This document shows, in pieces, positions 16,397 to 31,927 of a stretch of 64,000 nucleotides of DNA; positions within the stretch are counted from its first letter, which is position 1, and each line of letters opens with the position of its first letter. The notes under the pieces were generated by a model. The model searched no databases and was not told the origin of the DNA. It saw only the letters and a program-made list of their open reading frames with translations. Made by a program: the position numbers and the translations under genes. The stretch covers positions 2,356,001 through 2,420,000 of the forward strand of contig NZ_FNSD01000001.1 in NCBI RefSeq assembly GCF_900105625.1, in the 5' to 3' direction. The DNA is from Terriglobus roseus. Its GTDB lineage: Bacteria; Acidobacteriota; Terriglobia; Terriglobales; Acidobacteriaceae.

Positions 16397-16645
16397 TCAT
16401 TTCAAAATCAGGCCAAAGAATTTCCCAAAAACATCTGACAGTCGTGTCGGCAACAGGAAATTCAATTTGCCAAAGTTTCGCAGTCTGCTGAGCTGTCGTC
16501 AATTGACAGGCGCAGCGGATTACGTAATGCTTCCCTGAAACCAGTAAAAAAGCTTCTCCCCATGTGTCGATCTCGGTCGGTCCAGGCAGGATTAGCAGCT
16601 CGTAGCGCAGATATCCAGGTTTTGCGCATTTTCAGGAGGCAGTAG
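16397..16645 (+). promoter_or_regulatory. Leader/promoter region of TonB-dependent receptor 1
   Basis: The region is about 250 bp without a gene. It contains a perfect TTGACA (16503-16508), but the best -10 nearby is poor, so no promoter is claimed. CAATTGACAG sits in a small palindromic context. An SD (AGGAGG) lies 6 bp before the receptor ATG. Confidence 0.35.
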
Positions 16646-19600
16646 ATGAAAAAGTTCTTGCTAGCCGCACCGCTGGCGATCGTCAGCGTGTCGGCCTACG
16701 GACAGGCCGTGTCCGTAAACGGTGGAGCGATCCAGGGCACCATTACCGATCCGTCCGGCGCCGCAGTTCCCAACGCGACCATCAACATCGTGAGCGCGGA
16801 CCAGGGATCTACCAAGACCATCACCACCGACAAGAGTGGCTTCTACTCTGTCGGTCCCCTCAACCCCGGCACCTACACTATCAAGATCAGCGCCGCAGGC
16901 TTCCAGAACACGGAGGTTAAGACCCGCATTCTCACTGGCACAGCGACGCCCGGCAGCTTCAAACTCACCGTGGGCCAGTCGTCTGAGACCATCGAGGTCA
17001 CCGCCGGCGACATCCAGGTCAATACGGACCAGGCCGGTGTCAGCGACGTCATCACTCGGGAGCAGATCGCAAGCCTCCCTGTGAACGGGCGTAACTTCCT
17101 CGACCTCGCGCAGATCGAGCCGGGCGTTCAGCTCACCAACGGAAATACCTTCGATCCCACCAAGTCGGGCTATACGGGCATCTCGGTCAACGGCACCTCG
17201 GGCCGTACCACGCGCATCCTGCTTGATGGCCAGGACATCACCGACGAGTTTGTCGGGACTACCATCTTCAACGTCTCGCAAGGCGCCATCAACGAGTTCC
17301 AGCTAAGCCGCTCCACGCAGGACGCAGCCGGTGAAGTCACCTCGCAGGGTTCTGTTCAGGTCTCCACGCGTTCCGGCACCAACAGCATCCATGGCGAAGC
17401 GTTCTATATCTTCCAGGATCAGCGCGCACTGGATGCGAACCCGAACTCGACCGCTAATGCGGCCGGTGCTCACGTAGCTCCGTACTTTCAGCGGAACCAG
17501 TACGGCGGCAGCGTAGGCTTTCCAATCATCAAGGACAAGCTTTTTGCCTTCGGTAACGCCGAGCGCATCGTGCAGAACAGTGCTTCGCCTTCGAATCTGG
17601 GTACCGTTTTCAACACGGCAGGCAACAACCCGGTCGGGCAGACGCAGACTCTCGCCTCTCTTTACCCCACAGTAGGGACACCCTACAGGCAGACATACTC
17701 CACAGCGCGTCTCGACTATCAGGGACCGTTCGGTGGACATTATTTCGCTCGCGGTAACTATAACGTCGATTCCACGCTGACAGCCGGTGGCACCACCCGT
17801 TTCGCGGCCTATCCGAATCGTGACAATACCTTCGGGGGCGCATTCGGCGCAGACTTCTCAAAAGGGCGGATGACTCACTCGTTCCGCGGGTCATACGAGA
17901 AATTTCACAACCTGATCGTGGACGGCAGCGCAACGTCTGGGTACGATCCACTCGTAACAGCCAACGGCCCCGTCGCAGTCAGCTATTCGGGGCAGATCTA
18001 CTTTGGACCGAACGCTAACGCACCGCAGGCGACCTACCAGTCAGATAAGCAGCTCCGCTATGACGGCGGCTATACGGTCGGTAAGCACAACATCCGCTTC
18101 GGCGGTGCACTCAACCGTATCCAGTCTGGTGCATATGCCGCGTTCTATGGCATTGGTCCTCGTCTGAATCCGACTGCAAGTAACCTGCTTGCCGGCACTG
18201 TAACCGCAACCAATCCACTTGGCCTTGGTTGCAGTGGCGTCCCCGGTGCAGCAGCCTGCCCGGGCGACCCCATTAATGGCTACAACACCAGCTCTGCAAC
18301 AATCGGCAATGGTCAGGGATACAGCAACAGTTCTCCCGCATTCGGACTTCCTGGTGGCGGCGTCGGCTCTTGGCGCTTCTCGTTTTATGCCGCTGATGCA
18401 TGGAAGGTCACGCCCAGCCTGACGCTTACAGCGGGTCTGCGCTACAGTGCGGATACAAATCGCCAGAACAACTCCGTCAAGCTGCCTACCTGTGCTGACC
18501 TGAGCAGCACGGTCAGCTATGTTTGCGGAAGCGCATCCGGTTCCACGAATGCATTCAGCCTATTTAATTCTGCCTATACCGGTAGCTATGTAAATCAGCC
18601 ATACGGGAACCTCGGACCGCAGGCCGGCATCGTTTATGCCCCTGGCAACCATAAAACAGTACTGCGAGCTGGTTTCGGTCTCTTCTACGAGAGCGTTGTA
18701 TTCAACAACTCCTCCAATGCTGAGGGCGCGCTCCTGAAGGTTTCCCCGTCTTACTACTCCCGGAACCCCTGCACGTCGCTCACCGGCATCAACTTTCCGG
18801 ATGGTAGCGTCGTCTCCACAACCCCTGACGGCACTTCCTTCACCACAAACTGCCTTGGCAGAACAATCGCACAGTCCGCGCCGCAGTTTGCCGCGCTCGA
18901 GAAGTCTCTGCAGGCAAATGCGCGGGCGAACTCGGCCACGGTCAACGGCAGTTACTTCGGCAATACTCTGAGCGCAAGCGGACTGTACGCTCCCGTCTAC
19001 CGCCAGCCACTCTCCGAGCAGTGGAACTTTGGTCTGCAGCGGGAGCTGTTCAAGGGCGGAGTTCTTAGCGCCGACTACATTCACAACATGACTTGGCGAA
19101 TCGGTCAGACCATCGACCTCAATCACCAAGGTGCCGCCCGCAACTTCAACGCCGCATATGCACTCGCAGCGATTAACCGCTTGTCAGCGACAGATGGCTG
19201 CGGAACAGCAACAACTGCTACGTCACAGGCCGTCGTCCAGTGCGAAATCGGAAAGGGCCGCTCGATCGCGAGTTTCGCGAGCGTAGGACTGGACTCGTCT
19301 TCGGTATACGACGCCAACAACAACTGGAAGTACGCCAAAGGTGACCCGGCAGCCGCGACCGCGACGGCCGCGGCAAAAGCAAATACTCCGGCCGCGTTTC
19401 CTGGCAGCAACCCCGACTTGGGCAGCGGTTCCTTCATTCGCCCCACTGGGCGGTCTGGCTATGACGCTCTGCAGGTTGTCTATCGCCAGTCCACTTCGCA
19501 TCCCGTTCCGGGAATCGAGCACGGCAACTTCCAGATCTCTTACAACCTATCCCGCATCGTCTCCAACCTGACGTCATCGGACCAATTCTTCACCTCCGGT

Positions 19601-20365
19601 GCCTATGACGCCGATAATCCGAACCAGTACATCGGGCGCAACGGCCTCGACCGGAAGCACCAGCTTTCTTTCGGCGGCTCCATCAATCCGAAGTATGGTC
19701 CAGAAATCGGCGTCATCGGCCACTTCTTCTCCGCACTTCCGTCGACGCTGTACCTTGACTCGAATCTGGCATCCGGCAATATCTTCACGACTGATATCAC
19801 CGGCGACGGAACCACGGGCGATGTCGCTCCCGGTACGCTGCCGGGTGATTACATGCACCGGATCAAGTCAGACACCCTTGGTCAGTACATCACTACCTTC
19901 AACGGCAGCTACGCCGGCAAGCCGACACCCGCAGGACAGGCTGTCATCAACTCTAATCTCATGAGCCTCTCGCAGCTCACGGCGCTGAAAGGCGTTATTC
20001 AGCCGGTCGCTCAGTTACCCACGACCCGCGCTGTAAACAACCCAATGTTCCGTTCTCTCGACGTGAACTTCTCGTACCCGATCCGCTTCAACAAGGTCCA
20101 CGAGGGGTTCAGCCTTACGCCGAAGATTGCGTTCTACAACGTGGCGAACTTCAGCAATTTCGCCAGCACCGTCACGAATCCGGGTACCCTGCAGAACACC
20201 ACCACCGCAGGCGGTGCGTTCAACAGCGGAACGGGTGGAGCTGGATTTATAACCGGCCCCAACAATTTCGCAACTTACTCAGCAAGCCGGACCTACCGCG
20301 GCGTCGGCACCTTCTCGCAGGGTGCGCCCCGCCAGACGGAATTCCAGCTGACGGCCACCTTCTAA
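16646..20365 (+). CDS. Oar-like TonB-dependent receptor with N-terminal carboxypeptidase-like domain
   Basis: The 1239-residue outer-membrane protein has a signal peptide (MKKFLLAAPLAIVSVSAYGQ), a carboxypeptidase-regulatory-like domain (about 26-110; IQGTITDPSGAAVPNATINI, GFYSVGPLNPGTYTIKI), a plug domain (about 120-260; LPVNGRNFLDLAQIEPGVQL, RILLDGQDITDEF) and a long 22-strand-type barrel ending in an aromatic (LTATF). It imports or anchors unknown macromolecules with TonB energy. Family length (over 1000 residues) is typical of Acidobacteriota. The start has an SD (AGGAGG). Its natural energiser, TonB, appears frameshifted at 29984-30705 in this window. Confidence 0.92.
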   Translation: MKKFLLAAPLAIVSVSAYGQAVSVNGGAIQGTITDPSGAAVPNATINIVSADQGSTKTITTDKSGFYSVGPLNPGTYTIKISAAGFQNTEVKTRILTGTATPGSFKLTVGQSSETIEVTAGDIQVNTDQAGVSDVITREQIASLPVNGRNFLDLAQIEPGVQLTNGNTFDPTKSGYTGISVNGTSGRTTRILLDGQDITDEFVGTTIFNVSQGAINEFQLSRSTQDAAGEVTSQGSVQVSTRSGTNSIHGEAFYIFQDQRALDANPNSTANAAGAHVAPYFQRNQYGGSVGFPIIKDKLFAFGNAERIVQNSASPSNLGTVFNTAGNNPVGQTQTLASLYPTVGTPYRQTYSTARLDYQGPFGGHYFARGNYNVDSTLTAGGTTRFAAYPNRDNTFGGAFGADFSKGRMTHSFRGSYEKFHNLIVDGSATSGYDPLVTANGPVAVSYSGQIYFGPNANAPQATYQSDKQLRYDGGYTVGKHNIRFGGALNRIQSGAYAAFYGIGPRLNPTASNLLAGTVTATNPLGLGCSGVPGAAACPGDPINGYNTSSATIGNGQGYSNSSPAFGLPGGGVGSWRFSFYAADAWKVTPSLTLTAGLRYSADTNRQNNSVKLPTCADLSSTVSYVCGSASGSTNAFSLFNSAYTGSYVNQPYGNLGPQAGIVYAPGNHKTVLRAGFGLFYESVVFNNSSNAEGALLKVSPSYYSRNPCTSLTGINFPDGSVVSTTPDGTSFTTNCLGRTIAQSAPQFAALEKSLQANARANSATVNGSYFGNTLSASGLYAPVYRQPLSEQWNFGLQRELFKGGVLSADYIHNMTWRIGQTIDLNHQGAARNFNAAYALAAINRLSATDGCGTATTATSQAVVQCEIGKGRSIASFASVGLDSSSVYDANNNWKYAKGDPAAATATAAAKANTPAAFPGSNPDLGSGSFIRPTGRSGYDALQVVYRQSTSHPVPGIEHGNFQISYNLSRIVSNLTSSDQFFTSGAYDADNPNQYIGRNGLDRKHQLSFGGSINPKYGPEIGVIGHFFSALPSTLYLDSNLASGNIFTTDITGDGTTGDVAPGTLPGDYMHRIKSDTLGQYITTFNGSYAGKPTPAGQAVINSNLMSLSQLTALKGVIQPVAQLPTTRAVNNPMFRSLDVNFSYPIRFNKVHEGFSLTPKIAFYNVANFSNFASTVTNPGTLQNTTTAGGAFNSGTGGAGFITGPNNFATYSASRTYRGVGTFSQGAPRQTEFQLTATF

Positions 20366-20387
20366 CTATCACTGCAACCAACATCGA

Positions 20388-20417
20388 AAAGGGACCGCCT
20401 CGGCGGTCCCTTTCGCT
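20388..20417 (+). terminator. Rho-independent terminator
   Basis: The stem AAAGGGACCGCC / GGCGGTCCCTTT has a 2-nt minimal loop and sits between the convergent receptor and oxidoreductase genes. It is probably bidirectional. Confidence 0.85.
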
Positions 20418-20432
20418 TTGTTATGGATCCGG

Positions 20433-21716
20433 CTAACTCTCCATGGCGGGCAGGCCTGGACCACGCGTTGGCCCGGTTGGTGGCGTAACCTTCACACTCC
20501 GTGCGGTCGCTGCCGACTTATAGATCGCTTCCACCAGACGCATATCCTGCAGACCTTCCTCGCCGCCCGTATGTGGTTGCTGGTTGTTCGTCACGCAGGA
20601 TGCCATGTGATCCATCTCGAGCGCGAACTGGTCTTTGTCCTCGATCGACGGCGTCATCTCCGTGTCCTTGCCGTCCATCAGTTTCACGAACCGCAACTTC
20701 GATCCGTGATAACCGAAGGCGGGATCCATCTCGGCAAAACCGTCGCTGCCTTCAAGCCGCAGGAAGGCTGAGCGATGAGTGTCATAGGCCGTCGTGAACG
20801 TCGCCGTTACGCCGTTGGGAAAGCGGGCAATGACCTCACACCGGGCTTCCACCTCGCGAAAGCGCGGGTCATCCTTCGGCTGCACGACCGTCGCGAAGAC
20901 TTCCTCCGGCTCGATCCCCGTGAGGAAGCGTGCAGCGTTCAGGCAGTAGATCCCCACATCCGGCATCGCTCCACCACCCGCCAGCTTCTTATTGAGACGC
21001 CACTGCGTCGGATCGCCCTGGTCCTGAGAGTTCGATGCCACAATGGAACGTAACGTCCCGATCCTCCCATCGCGAACGGCCTTTTCAAGCGTGCGATTCA
21101 TCGGCTCATACTGCTGCCGATACGCGATCATCAGCTTCACATTCGCAGCCTTGCAGGCGGCGATCATCTCCTCGCACTCGGCGGCGCTGTTCGCCATGGG
21201 CTTCTCGCACAGGATGTGTTTGCCCATCTTTGCGGCGCGCATGACGAACTCGCGGTGCATGCCATTTGGCAGAACGATGTAGATCACATCGACGCCGGGC
21301 ATCTCCTTCAGCTTCTCGAAGCCGGCGTAGTCGGTGATGCTCGTCTCTGCAATGCCATACTGCGCGGCAATCTTCAGCGCTTTCCCGCGGTCGCCGCTGA
21401 CCAGTGCCACGGGCTTGCACGAGTCGCTCTTCGCGAAGGCCGGCAGAATTTGGTTCAGCGACAGCCGGCCCAGGCCAACGATGGCGAAACCAACGCGCCG
21501 GTTCGTTGGGAGAAATGGTCCGGGCGCTTTCTCCGCTGCTTCCGTGCTGGCGTGGATCTGCGATAGCTGCACTTCGTTTCCCGCGTTCGGTTTCTGCTGC
21601 GCTGCGGCAGCTCCCAAGGCAGTCACAGCGGCCACGGCGCCGCCAGCGGTCCTCAGGAAGCTACGTCGCGATGTGCCGGTCGTTTCGTTCGCTGCGATGT
21701 TTACGATCTCACTCAT
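20433..21716 (-). CDS. Tat-exported Gfo/Idh/MocA-family oxidoreductase
   Basis: The 427-residue protein has a Tat signal (TSRRSFLRTAGGAVAAVTALG), a Rossmann domain (VGFAIVGLGRLSLNQ, about 75-90), the family signature EKPMA (about 180) and a C-terminal alpha/beta dimerisation domain. The YRQQYEP stretch recalls glucose-fructose oxidoreductase-type enzymes. It would bind NAD(P) before export, as Tat substrates do, and act on a sugar in the periplasm. The start MSEIVNIAAN is preferred over an upstream ATG 10 codons earlier because it places the twin-arginine motif normally. No sugar-specific neighbours help to name the substrate. Confidence 0.88.
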   Translation of the reverse strand: MSEIVNIAANETTGTSRRSFLRTAGGAVAAVTALGAAAAQQKPNAGNEVQLSQIHASTEAAEKAPGPFLPTNRRVGFAIVGLGRLSLNQILPAFAKSDSCKPVALVSGDRGKALKIAAQYGIAETSITDYAGFEKLKEMPGVDVIYIVLPNGMHREFVMRAAKMGKHILCEKPMANSAAECEEMIAACKAANVKLMIAYRQQYEPMNRTLEKAVRDGRIGTLRSIVASNSQDQGDPTQWRLNKKLAGGGAMPDVGIYCLNAARFLTGIEPEEVFATVVQPKDDPRFREVEARCEVIARFPNGVTATFTTAYDTHRSAFLRLEGSDGFAEMDPAFGYHGSKLRFVKLMDGKDTEMTPSIEDKDQFALEMDHMASCVTNNQQPHTGGEEGLQDMRLVEAIYKSAATARSVKVTPPTGPTRGPGLPAMES

Positions 21717-21800
21717 GCAACGTGGGATGCGGCGCCTCCCAGACACGAAAACCGCACTCCCATGCCAGAGCGTGCCAGTGCGCGGTATGCTTTGTGGGCC

Positions 21801-25857: not shown

Positions 25858-26038
25858 TGTCATCCCGCAGCGCAGCAGAGGGATCTGCATGTGTGCCCGC
25901 CCAACGAAGCGATACCAGCGGTCACAACCGAGTGCATGTTCGCGCCATGCGCGAACGGACAAACATCCGGGGCCGCTGCAATGGCATGGGCGCGTCGGTT
26001 GAAATGCAGATCCCTCCGCTGCGCTGCGGGATGACAAA
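25858..26038. repeat. Paired inverted repeat element, subtype B
   Basis: The left arm (25858-25892) reads TGTCATCCCGCAGCG...GGATCTGCATGTG; the right arm (26002-26038) is the inverse, ending GCGGGATGACAA. The spacer contains GTTCGCGCCATGCGCGAAC, a further inverted repeat. A related half-element with a similar spacer is at 29846-29945. A degenerate copy (GCTGCGGGATGGCAAC) trails at about 26072. It occupies the rnr-hrpB gap (411 bp), which has no gene. Confidence 0.85.
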
Positions 26039-29081: not shown

Positions 29082-29744
29082 ATGTACGTCAATCGCACCA
29101 ACGGATTCCCAACTGTCATCGACGTGCCCCGCGAAGGCACCGCGCCCCTGCTGGCCAAGGTGCTGGGCATTACCGCGCTCGGCTTCTTCGTTACCGCCAT
29201 CGGCGTCGCCACCGCGCCCCCGTGGAGCATGCTGCCCGGCTTCATCGCCGTCCTGGCGCTGGTCTTCGGCATCAACGCCGTGCGCCGCACCAACGCCGGC
29301 CTGGCCATGGGCCTGTTTATGGCGCTCGCCTTCTTCATGGGCTGGGAGATCTCGCCGATCATCCACATGTACGTGCGCATGATCGGCCCCGGCATCGTCT
29401 TCCAGGCGGCGGTCACCACCGCGCTCGGCATGACGGCCATGGGCTGCGTCGCCTACCTGTTCAGCATCGACTACCGCAAGCTGTCGGGCATCGCCCTCGC
29501 CGGCCTGCTGCTGCTGATCCTGGCCAGCGTGATCAGCATCTTCTTCCACTTCCTGTCGCCCAACACCTACTCGTGGATCGCCCTCGCCATCTTCACCGCG
29601 CTCACCGTGGCAGACTTCGCCCGCATCCGCGCAGGCGGCGACGGCATGGGTGCAGTCTCGCTAGCACTCGGCATCTATCTGGACGCAATCAACATCTTCA
29701 TGATCCTCCTCCAACTCTTCAGCGGCCGCAGCCGCCGCGACTAA
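29082..29744 (+). CDS. Bax inhibitor-1/YccA family membrane protein
   Basis: The 220-residue protein has seven predicted membrane helices and the BI-1 family layout, with a conserved C-terminal block LGIYLDAINIFMILLQLF. Bacterial members (YccA-like) sit in the inner membrane and are linked to FtsH protease control or to ion leak; a specific role here is not shown. There is no signal peptide. It stands alone, flanked by repeats upstream and a terminator downstream. Confidence 0.88.
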   Translation: MYVNRTNGFPTVIDVPREGTAPLLAKVLGITALGFFVTAIGVATAPPWSMLPGFIAVLALVFGINAVRRTNAGLAMGLFMALAFFMGWEISPIIHMYVRMIGPGIVFQAAVTTALGMTAMGCVAYLFSIDYRKLSGIALAGLLLLILASVISIFFHFLSPNTYSWIALAIFTALTVADFARIRAGGDGMGAVSLALGIYLDAINIFMILLQLFSGRSRRD

Positions 29745-29821: not shown

Positions 29822-29945
29822 GAACGCAGATCCCCCTTTCGAATCTGTCATCCCGCAGCGCAGCGAAGGGATCTGCATGTGAACCTACGCGCCCACCCCA
29901 TCCCAGAGGTCACAGATCCCAGCCCGTTCGCGCATCGCGCGAACA
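29822..29945. repeat. Partial subtype B repeat
   Basis: TGTCATCCCGCAGCGCAG...GATCTGCATGTG (29846-29881) is followed by a spacer with GTTCGCGCATCGCGCGAAC, like the spacer of the 25.9-kb element. The right arm is absent; a short piece of an inverse arm (GCAGATCCC) precedes it at 29826. Confidence 0.75.
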
Positions 29946-29983: not shown

Positions 29984-30705
29984 CTACCCGCCGAACGAGA
30001 AGTTCACCGTAATGGTCGTCTCCACCTCCGTCGGTTCCCCGTTCAACAGGTACGGCCGGTACCTCCACGCCCGCACCGCTGCAACGGCACTGGCGCGCAA
30101 CATCTCCAGCCCGGACACCACCGACAGGCTCTCAATCGCGCCCGTCTTCGAGATGACGGCGTGCAGCACCACCGCCCCGGAAACATGCGCCGCCTTCGCA
30201 ATGGGCGGATAGACCGGCGTCGTCTTCGTGACAATCTGCCCAGCCATCACACGCTCGAAACCCGCGCCGGGCCGACCGGCCTCGACGGCGCAACCGTAAC
30301 CACCGGAGGCGCTGGCCCCAGCCCAAGCGCACTGATCACGCCGGGACCACTGGCCGAACTTCCACCCGTCATCCCCACAACGCCAGGAACCGAAGGCGGC
30401 GGATCGTCGTGCGTCATGTCGATGTGCCGAGGAATCCGCGTGGGAGCCAGAAACGGGTCCACACCGGCGGTAACGCGAGCGACCCGCGCCGGCACGACCG
30501 GCGGCGGCGCAGGGGCAGCCGGTGGTGGAGGCGGAGCCGACAGCATGGCCAGCATGGCCGTCCTCGGCAAGGCATCGGGGTAGAGCAGCGGCAGAAGAAC
30601 GGCAACGCCGACCACCGCGGCGTTGAACGTTGCAGTCACCCAGACATAGCTGCTGGACCTCGACTTCAGCCGCCCGGACGATTCGACCAACGAGTCCTGA
30701 AACAT
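29984..30705 (-). pseudogene. TonB energy transducer, split by a one-base frameshift
   Basis: The N-terminal part (start 30705, MFQDSLVESSGRLKSR; one membrane helix, then a proline-rich linker with APPPPPAAPAPPP) runs in one frame to a TGA at about 30250-30252 after ARVSSV. The C-terminal TonB domain (GQIVTKTTPVYPPIAK ... VVLHAVISKTGAIESL ... WRYRPYLLNG) lies in the next frame and ends at 29984. Restoring one G just before the stop gives an ARVSSGVMAGQI-type junction like intact relatives. The stop and an ATG overlap as TGATG, which could allow reinitiation. So this is a recent pseudogene, a split gene or a sequence error. If intact, it would power the receptors at 16.6 and 60.6 kb. Confidence 0.8.
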
Positions 30706-30906
30706 AAGCAATCCCATCTGCGAGAGGAAAAGCTGGGACTGTAGACACCGCCGGACGGCCGTTTGTTACAGGAACATCGCGAAAGTTGACTGAGACGTCT
30801 CAACACACACCGTCCTTTGCCTTTTGGGCACCATCTTTCGCAAGTTTTTCGGGCAAGACAAAAGGCCCACCAATGTCGGCGGACCTTCTGAACTACATCG
30901 AATTGT

Positions 30907-31072: not shown

Positions 31073-31729
31073 TTACTTCGGTTGTGCCGTCGTGCGAAGG
31101 TAAGGCTTAACCGTCTTGTACCCCGGGAACTTCACGGCCGCGTCGTCGTTCGAAACTGCGCCGGTGATAATGACATCTTCGCCGACCTTCCAGTTCGCAG
31201 GTGTTGCAACAGGGAACTTCGAGGTGAGCAGCATGCTGTCCAGTACGCGGATGATCTCGTCGAAGTTACGGCCGGTCGTCATCGGGTAAGCCAGTGTCAA
31301 CTTGATCTTCTTATCCGGTCCAATGATGAATACGGTGCGCACGGGCGCGTTGTTGGCAGGTGTGCGGCCTTCGCAGCTGTCGCCCTCGTCGCCGGGCAGC
31401 ATGTCATACAGCTTTGCAACCTTCAGGTCGAAGTCCCCAATGATGGGAAAGGTAACATCGGCGCCGCTGACATCCTTGATGTCTTCAGCCCACTTGCTGT
31501 GGTCGCTGACCTTGTCGACGCTGAGGCCGATGACCTTCACACCGCGGTTGGCAAACTGCTGTTCGAGCGTTGCGACTGCACCCAGCTCGGTGGTGCAGAC
31601 AGGCGTGAAGTCCTTCGGGTGCGAGAACAACACAACCCAATTATCGCCAATAAATTCGTGAAAGCGAATCGGACCCTGCGTTGTTTCAGCGGTGAAGTCC
31701 GGAGCTACATCGTTGATGCGGAGTGACAT
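31073..31729 (-). CDS. 1-Cys peroxiredoxin (Prx6 type)
   Basis: The 218-residue thiol peroxidase reduces hydrogen and alkyl peroxides. The peroxidatic cysteine is in HPKDFTPVCTTE (about residue 47). The C-terminal Prx6-specific domain (about 150-218; YPMTTGRNFDEIIRVLDS) is present. Another Cys at about residue 122 (DSCEGRTP) is not in the usual resolving position. The start MSLRINDVAPDF is chosen by an AGGA SD 5 bp upstream and the family N-terminus. It is divergent from the PhzF gene and upstream of the tRNA. Confidence 0.93.
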   Translation of the reverse strand: MSLRINDVAPDFTAETTQGPIRFHEFIGDNWVVLFSHPKDFTPVCTTELGAVATLEQQFANRGVKVIGLSVDKVSDHSKWAEDIKDVSGADVTFPIIGDFDLKVAKLYDMLPGDEGDSCEGRTPANNAPVRTVFIIGPDKKIKLTLAYPMTTGRNFDEIIRVLDSMLLTSKFPVATPANWKVGEDVIITGAVSNDDAAVKFPGYKTVKPYLRTTAQPK

Positions 31730-31927
31730 CGGAATCCTCTGTGCAGATGGTATGAAGTCAAACAACAAACCCACCAGGCTTGGCCGGTGGGCGGGGTTCG
31801 TGCAATTCGCTGCGGTGTTTGCGGCGCGCTACGACCCTGCCTGGACGCAAGGACAGCAGCGGCAGGTCAGAAGAGTCGAATTCGAACGCGTCGTCATCAC
31901 CTGCAACAATATGCCGGAGGTGATGGG

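Follow-up and report, generated by a model that had tools for sequence, protein, structure and literature searches.

A one-base frame break separates anchor and TonB_C domain in an orphan tonB gene of Terriglobus roseus: probable recent loss or possible sequence error

Results

The window, by which we mean the whole analyzed stretch of 64,000 nucleotides, comes from the soil bacterium Terriglobus roseus. On its minus strand it carries a tonB gene whose two halves lie in neighboring reading frames (Table 1). The upstream half has a Kyte-Doolittle hydrophobic peak of 2.07 at residue 27 and contains 27 prolines among its 156 residues; it matched no Pfam family. The downstream half matches the Pfam profile TonB_C (PF03544; E 2.3e-18, 66.8 bits against a cut-off of 24.6), and the closest solved sequence is that of TonB2 (PDB 2k9k, E 9.1e-07). 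The gene has the anchor and proline-rich linker of a TonB energy transducer at its N terminus and the TonB_C domain at its C terminus; as deposited, anchor and domain are in different frames and not on one polypeptide.

The first frame runs from ATG 30717 to a TGA at 30249-30247. An earlier, sequence-only reading of this DNA had placed the start at 30705, which is an in-frame ATG, but only the second one. The other frame encodes the TonB_C domain from GTG 30250 or ATG 30247 to a stop at 29986-29984. The TGA of the first half and the ATG of the second have one base in common (TGATG). Aligned with the orthologue from T. roseus DSM 18391, the junction is one base short of whole codons (rows used for the junction alignment: window copy, L177, L195, and L179). 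No damage other than this single frame break was seen. The frame break is present in the sequence as deposited, and the adjacent frames, the overlapping stop and start, and the single-base shift described in the sequence-only reading all hold.

Table 1. Features of the tonB locus (window coordinates)
Feature	Position	Strand	Details
Bax1-I family membrane protein, downstream syntenic neighbor	29082..29744	+	Pfam match; synteny with DSM 18391 (G151)
Periplasmic TonB C-terminal domain half, neighboring frame	29984..30250	-	88 aa; PF03544; omega 0.055; TonB2 (2k9k) match
Junction: frame break, stop/ATG overlap TGATG	30245..30258	-	Single-base length difference from intact copies
Anchor and proline-rich half of orphan tonB	30247..30717	-	156 aa; TGA stop 30249-30247; omega 0.109 against DSM 18391 orthologue
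Continuous open frame over whole gene	29984..30748	-	254 aa; first two thirds not a conserved protein
AhpC/TSA peroxiredoxin, upstream syntenic neighbor	31073..31774	-	Pfam match; synteny with DSM 18391 (G151)

The sequence-only reading had also placed the gene near two TonB-dependent receptors. Both receptor-like genes are indeed in the window, but they lie about 10 kb and 30 kb from tonB. The genome has 40 matches to the Plug domain, 37 of them above the cut-off, and simple arithmetic gives about 0.5 per 64 kb. Given these numbers, two receptors in the window are not far from chance and their link to tonB is weak. One of the two, a TonB-dependent receptor-like protein at 16646-20365, stands next to a Gfo/Idh/MocA oxidoreductase (20433-21746) in a block (window about 16400-21750) that has no syntenic match in DSM 18391, whereas the genes on both sides do. 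The block could be either an insertion in the window genome or a loss in DSM 18391.

Another side observation concerns the repeat AGCGCAGCGRAGGGATCTGC. Two copies in the window are inverted relative to each other and separated by 140 bp (25866-26028); a further, single copy lies shortly beyond the 3' end of tonB (29854-29876). It is found in 11 of the 19 genomes of the genus (45 matches in G152, 43 in G161, three in the window genome, and none in G031 and G095), and several copies in G161 are again inverted pairs about 140 bp apart. The repeat looks like a small mobile element, presumably MITE- or REPIN-like.

The window genome is closely related to that of T. roseus DSM 18391. Among the other 18 genomes of the genus, the best match for the window tonB is found in T. 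roseus DSM 18391 (94% identity in the C half and 82% as DNA). Gene order across the window matches that of DSM 18391 inverted, apart from a few gaps, and in both genomes tonB is flanked by the peroxiredoxin and the Bax1-I protein. At this syntenic place, where the sequence-only reading had proposed to look, DSM 18391 has a single intact frame of 246 aa (NC_018014.1, G151:C1:237941-238681). Identical residues number 131 of 155 in the N half and 83 of 88 in the C half. Omega between the two copies is 0.109 in the N half (155 codons) and 0.055 in the C half (88 codons); for 13 other window genes compared with the same genome it ranges from 0.03 to 0.23. By these ratios, both halves of the window tonB were under purifying selection until recently.

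To what extent the break is shared was surveyed at 204 loci from the window genome, its relatives, and paralogues, which yielded 148 distinct matches to the C half. Of these, 93 have an adjacent N half, where the N match had to extend past residue 60 and the C match had to begin within residue 10. In 92 of the 93 distinct pairs anchor and TonB_C domain share one frame, and the window copy is the sole exception. A stop codon interrupts one of the in-frame pairs (L156), and among the matches listed for the tonB halves, five carry one internal stop each (G086 and G050; G116, G084, and G137). An intact orthologue, past purifying selection, and a lesion limited to the window genome, as expected of a recent pseudogene, are all seen here.

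A profile search found 12 TonB_C matches in the window genome, window copy included. The search for other tonB genes, which had also been suggested from the sequence, turned up an intact tonB-exbB-exbD-exbD operon (G000:C1:2571334-2574027), whose tonB is 80% identical to the window copy in the C half and 61% in the N half. A second exbB/exbD pair has an adjoining TonB_C match (C1:161048-162642). Eight further TonB_C ORFs, or the longest parts available of them, were inspected, the operon copy among the eight. Seven contain a hydrophobic segment, and at least one of the eight resembles a membrane peptidase by its motif. DSM 18391 has a short TonB_C fragment (a 66-codon open frame, G151:C1:69034-69189) about 4.5 kb from its operon tonB. 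In the window genome an ORF of 346 aa that includes a TonB_C domain (L002) lies similarly far from the operon, and the DSM 18391 fragment may be a remnant of the counterpart of this ORF.

No match to the genome's own ExbB or ExbD lies within 6 kb of the window tonB. The phylogenetic tree started from the window copy plus 44 loci picked by hand; these gave 38 distinct proteins, of which three short ones at contig ends were dropped, leaving 35 rows. The window copy pairs with that of DSM 18391 (support 100/99). Both belong to a clade whose seven rows are second TonBs, drawn from seven genomes of the genus; the fork of this clade is not fully supported (90/98). Its members are L177, L168, L170, L199, L201, L203, and the window copy (29984-30717), and their branches are longer than those of the operon copies. 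The flanks of six of the seven members were checked, that in G153 being left out. There is no ExbB/ExbD match within 6 kb 3' of the window copy, L071, L078, L213, and L214, where the full 6 kb is available, nor in the 1.05 kb of flank available for L076. With the clade represented in seven Terriglobus genomes, the orphan tonB is not obviously dispensable, which counts against the loss that we favor below. The branch leading to the window copy (0.042) is no longer than that of its intact sister (0.070), whose letter composition the tree program marks as unusual. Hence, the branch gives no hint of prolonged decay.

Discussion

We favor, with moderate confidence, a real loss of function: a recent one-base length change would have put the membrane anchor and the TonB_C domain of an orphan, exbB-less second tonB into different frames. 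We infer that the base change arose in the cell rather than during assembly. If the deposited sequence is correct, the cell should make a proline-rich stub that is anchored in the membrane but lacks the domain that contacts receptors. A C-terminal fragment may be made in traces and would remain in the cytoplasm. Neither stub nor fragment would be able to pass energy to outer-membrane receptors, and the gene product would be inactive. The loss would be tolerable because the intact tonB-exbB-exbD-exbD operon elsewhere in the genome should cover the need. The orphan tonB is probably redundant, and the cell would probably not miss it much.

A sequence or assembly error is also possible, although we lean against it: the cell would then carry an intact gene, and the deposited junction would be wrong by one base. 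The undamaged remainder of the gene fits a sequence error as well, as do the low omega on both sides of the break and the short branch. Long-read assemblies are known to suffer from indels that fragment genes (Kastor, PMC12007338). The residual errors of such assemblies are most often errors of homopolymer length (Polypolish, PMC8812927). The break itself has no homopolymer of three or more, which speaks against an error; three equal bases in a row come no nearer to it than five bases upstream.

How clean the assembly is otherwise can be judged from a syntenic screen of 464 kb of the window genome against 461 kb of DSM 18391. The screen used 307 syntenic, non-overlapping DSM 18391 ORFs under purifying selection (362 kb), and counted a frame break if the second segment was 25 aa or longer with at least 60% identity, and omega was no higher than 0.35. 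It would miss breaks close to the end of a gene and those in genes that have no syntenic match. Four candidates emerged, three of which were set aside since longer ORFs overlap them, so that tonB is the only frame break retained among the 307 ORFs. A single break in 362 kb of ORF sequence suits a good assembly with a few residual errors, and in this respect fits an error at tonB. It also means that the compared part is otherwise clean, in an assembly of 4.81 Mb in two contigs with 99.91% completeness, which argues against an error. An error-rich assembly as a general explanation can be rejected for the compared stretch, with one of 307 ORFs broken.

The reverse screen, from the window genome to DSM 18391, gave five candidates, of which one was set aside; the remaining four of 300 ORFs look broken in DSM 18391 (C1:2267986-2270835, 2370346-2371485, 2600615-2601412, and 2201061-2202005). 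These four could be differences in start or end, or genes broken in DSM 18391. Within the window, three of 41 matched DSM 18391 ORFs are spread over different frames. One is tonB; the others, judged by eye only, are a short extra match ahead of the start of another gene and a short intergenic ORF. The screens were limited to syntenic places because otherwise an intact paralogue outscores the broken tonB orthologue and the break is missed. In wider screens without this limit many candidates resemble antisense or gene-end artefacts.

Could the split gene work? A ribosome might restart at the overlapping ATG and make two cooperating halves, or slip and make the full protein. The TGATG overlap invites this idea, and since the second frame is open upstream, any slip ahead of the stop would be productive. 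The 20 nt that precede the inner ATG pair with the anti-Shine-Dalgarno sequence at -6.0, better than at the first ATG of tonB (+1.2) and almost as well as at the second (-6.7). Some restart at the inner ATG is possible, but the site is unremarkable, with 23% of 1075 ATGs on the strand pairing equally well or better. The first half (471 nt) contains no canonical X XXY YYZ slippery heptamer in frame, as a programmed -1 frameshift would have, only one look-alike in the wrong phase; homopolymers of five or more are absent from it as well. Hydropathy in the C half peaks at 1.43, below the usual threshold of 1.6, so that it lacks a hydrophobic segment to take it to the periplasm, which is why we expect a separately started C half to stay in the cytoplasm.

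The comparison with relatives points the same way. TGATG is an ordinary Val-Met codon pair, carried by 19 of the 92 readable copies (window copy included) and in frame in intact genes; at the junction it is read out of frame. The split is found in no other copy examined, whereas a programmed one should be kept in relatives. With 92 of 93 pairs sharing a frame, no slippery heptamer, and TGATG common in frame, a conserved or programmed split can be ruled out, and a working split or recoded TonB of any kind is unlikely, very much so in our estimate. Hence, from the outcomes that the sequence-only reading had offered, loss of this TonB and sequence error are supported; a split TonB and frameshift-dependent expression are not, given the single frame of the relatives, the missing heptamer, and a C half without a hydrophobic segment.

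One could also imagine that the cell makes use of the break. Low-level slippage or coupled restart at the orphan gene would yield full TonB or free TonB_C domain in small and regulated quantity, while the anchored stub would compete with the operon TonB for ExbB and ExbD and damp transport. We give this idea hardly any credence.

The possibility raised earlier that another start yields one continuous frame can practically be dismissed: the second frame is open back to GTG 30748 over 254 codons, but it is not conserved: its N part has four stops in the DSM 18391 orthologue and an omega of 2.53 over 154 codons (no stops and 0.109 in the TonB frame), and its translation, judged by eye, is unlike a TonB anchor. 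We take this frame to be a by-product of GC-rich coding.

A frame-broken spare tonB is of little importance alone. Under the real loss that we favor it would be an ordinary, recently broken gene, otherwise a sequence error; it does not look like a new kind of split protein. As a by-product, our analysis points to an old second TonB in Terriglobus with exbB and exbD absent nearby where this could be checked, and with purifying selection in the one pair measured. The titles and abstract openings of the searched literature do not name this orphan copy. If the loss is real, the strain would be a natural one without the second TonB and hence a ready comparison.

How does the window copy compare with known systems? 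It shares the hydrophobic anchor, the proline-rich linker, and the TonB_C domain with canonical TonB. Unlike the tonB of a tonB-exbB-exbD operon, it has its halves in different frames and no exbB or exbD within 6 kb. With the DSM 18391 orthologue it shares both neighbors, but the orthologue is in one frame and the window copy in two. Single-frameshift pseudogenes are a general kind in bacterial genomes, and nothing found in the deposited sequence sets the window copy apart from them. Judged by its sequence, it is like them in having one small length change in an otherwise conserved gene that has an intact paralogue.
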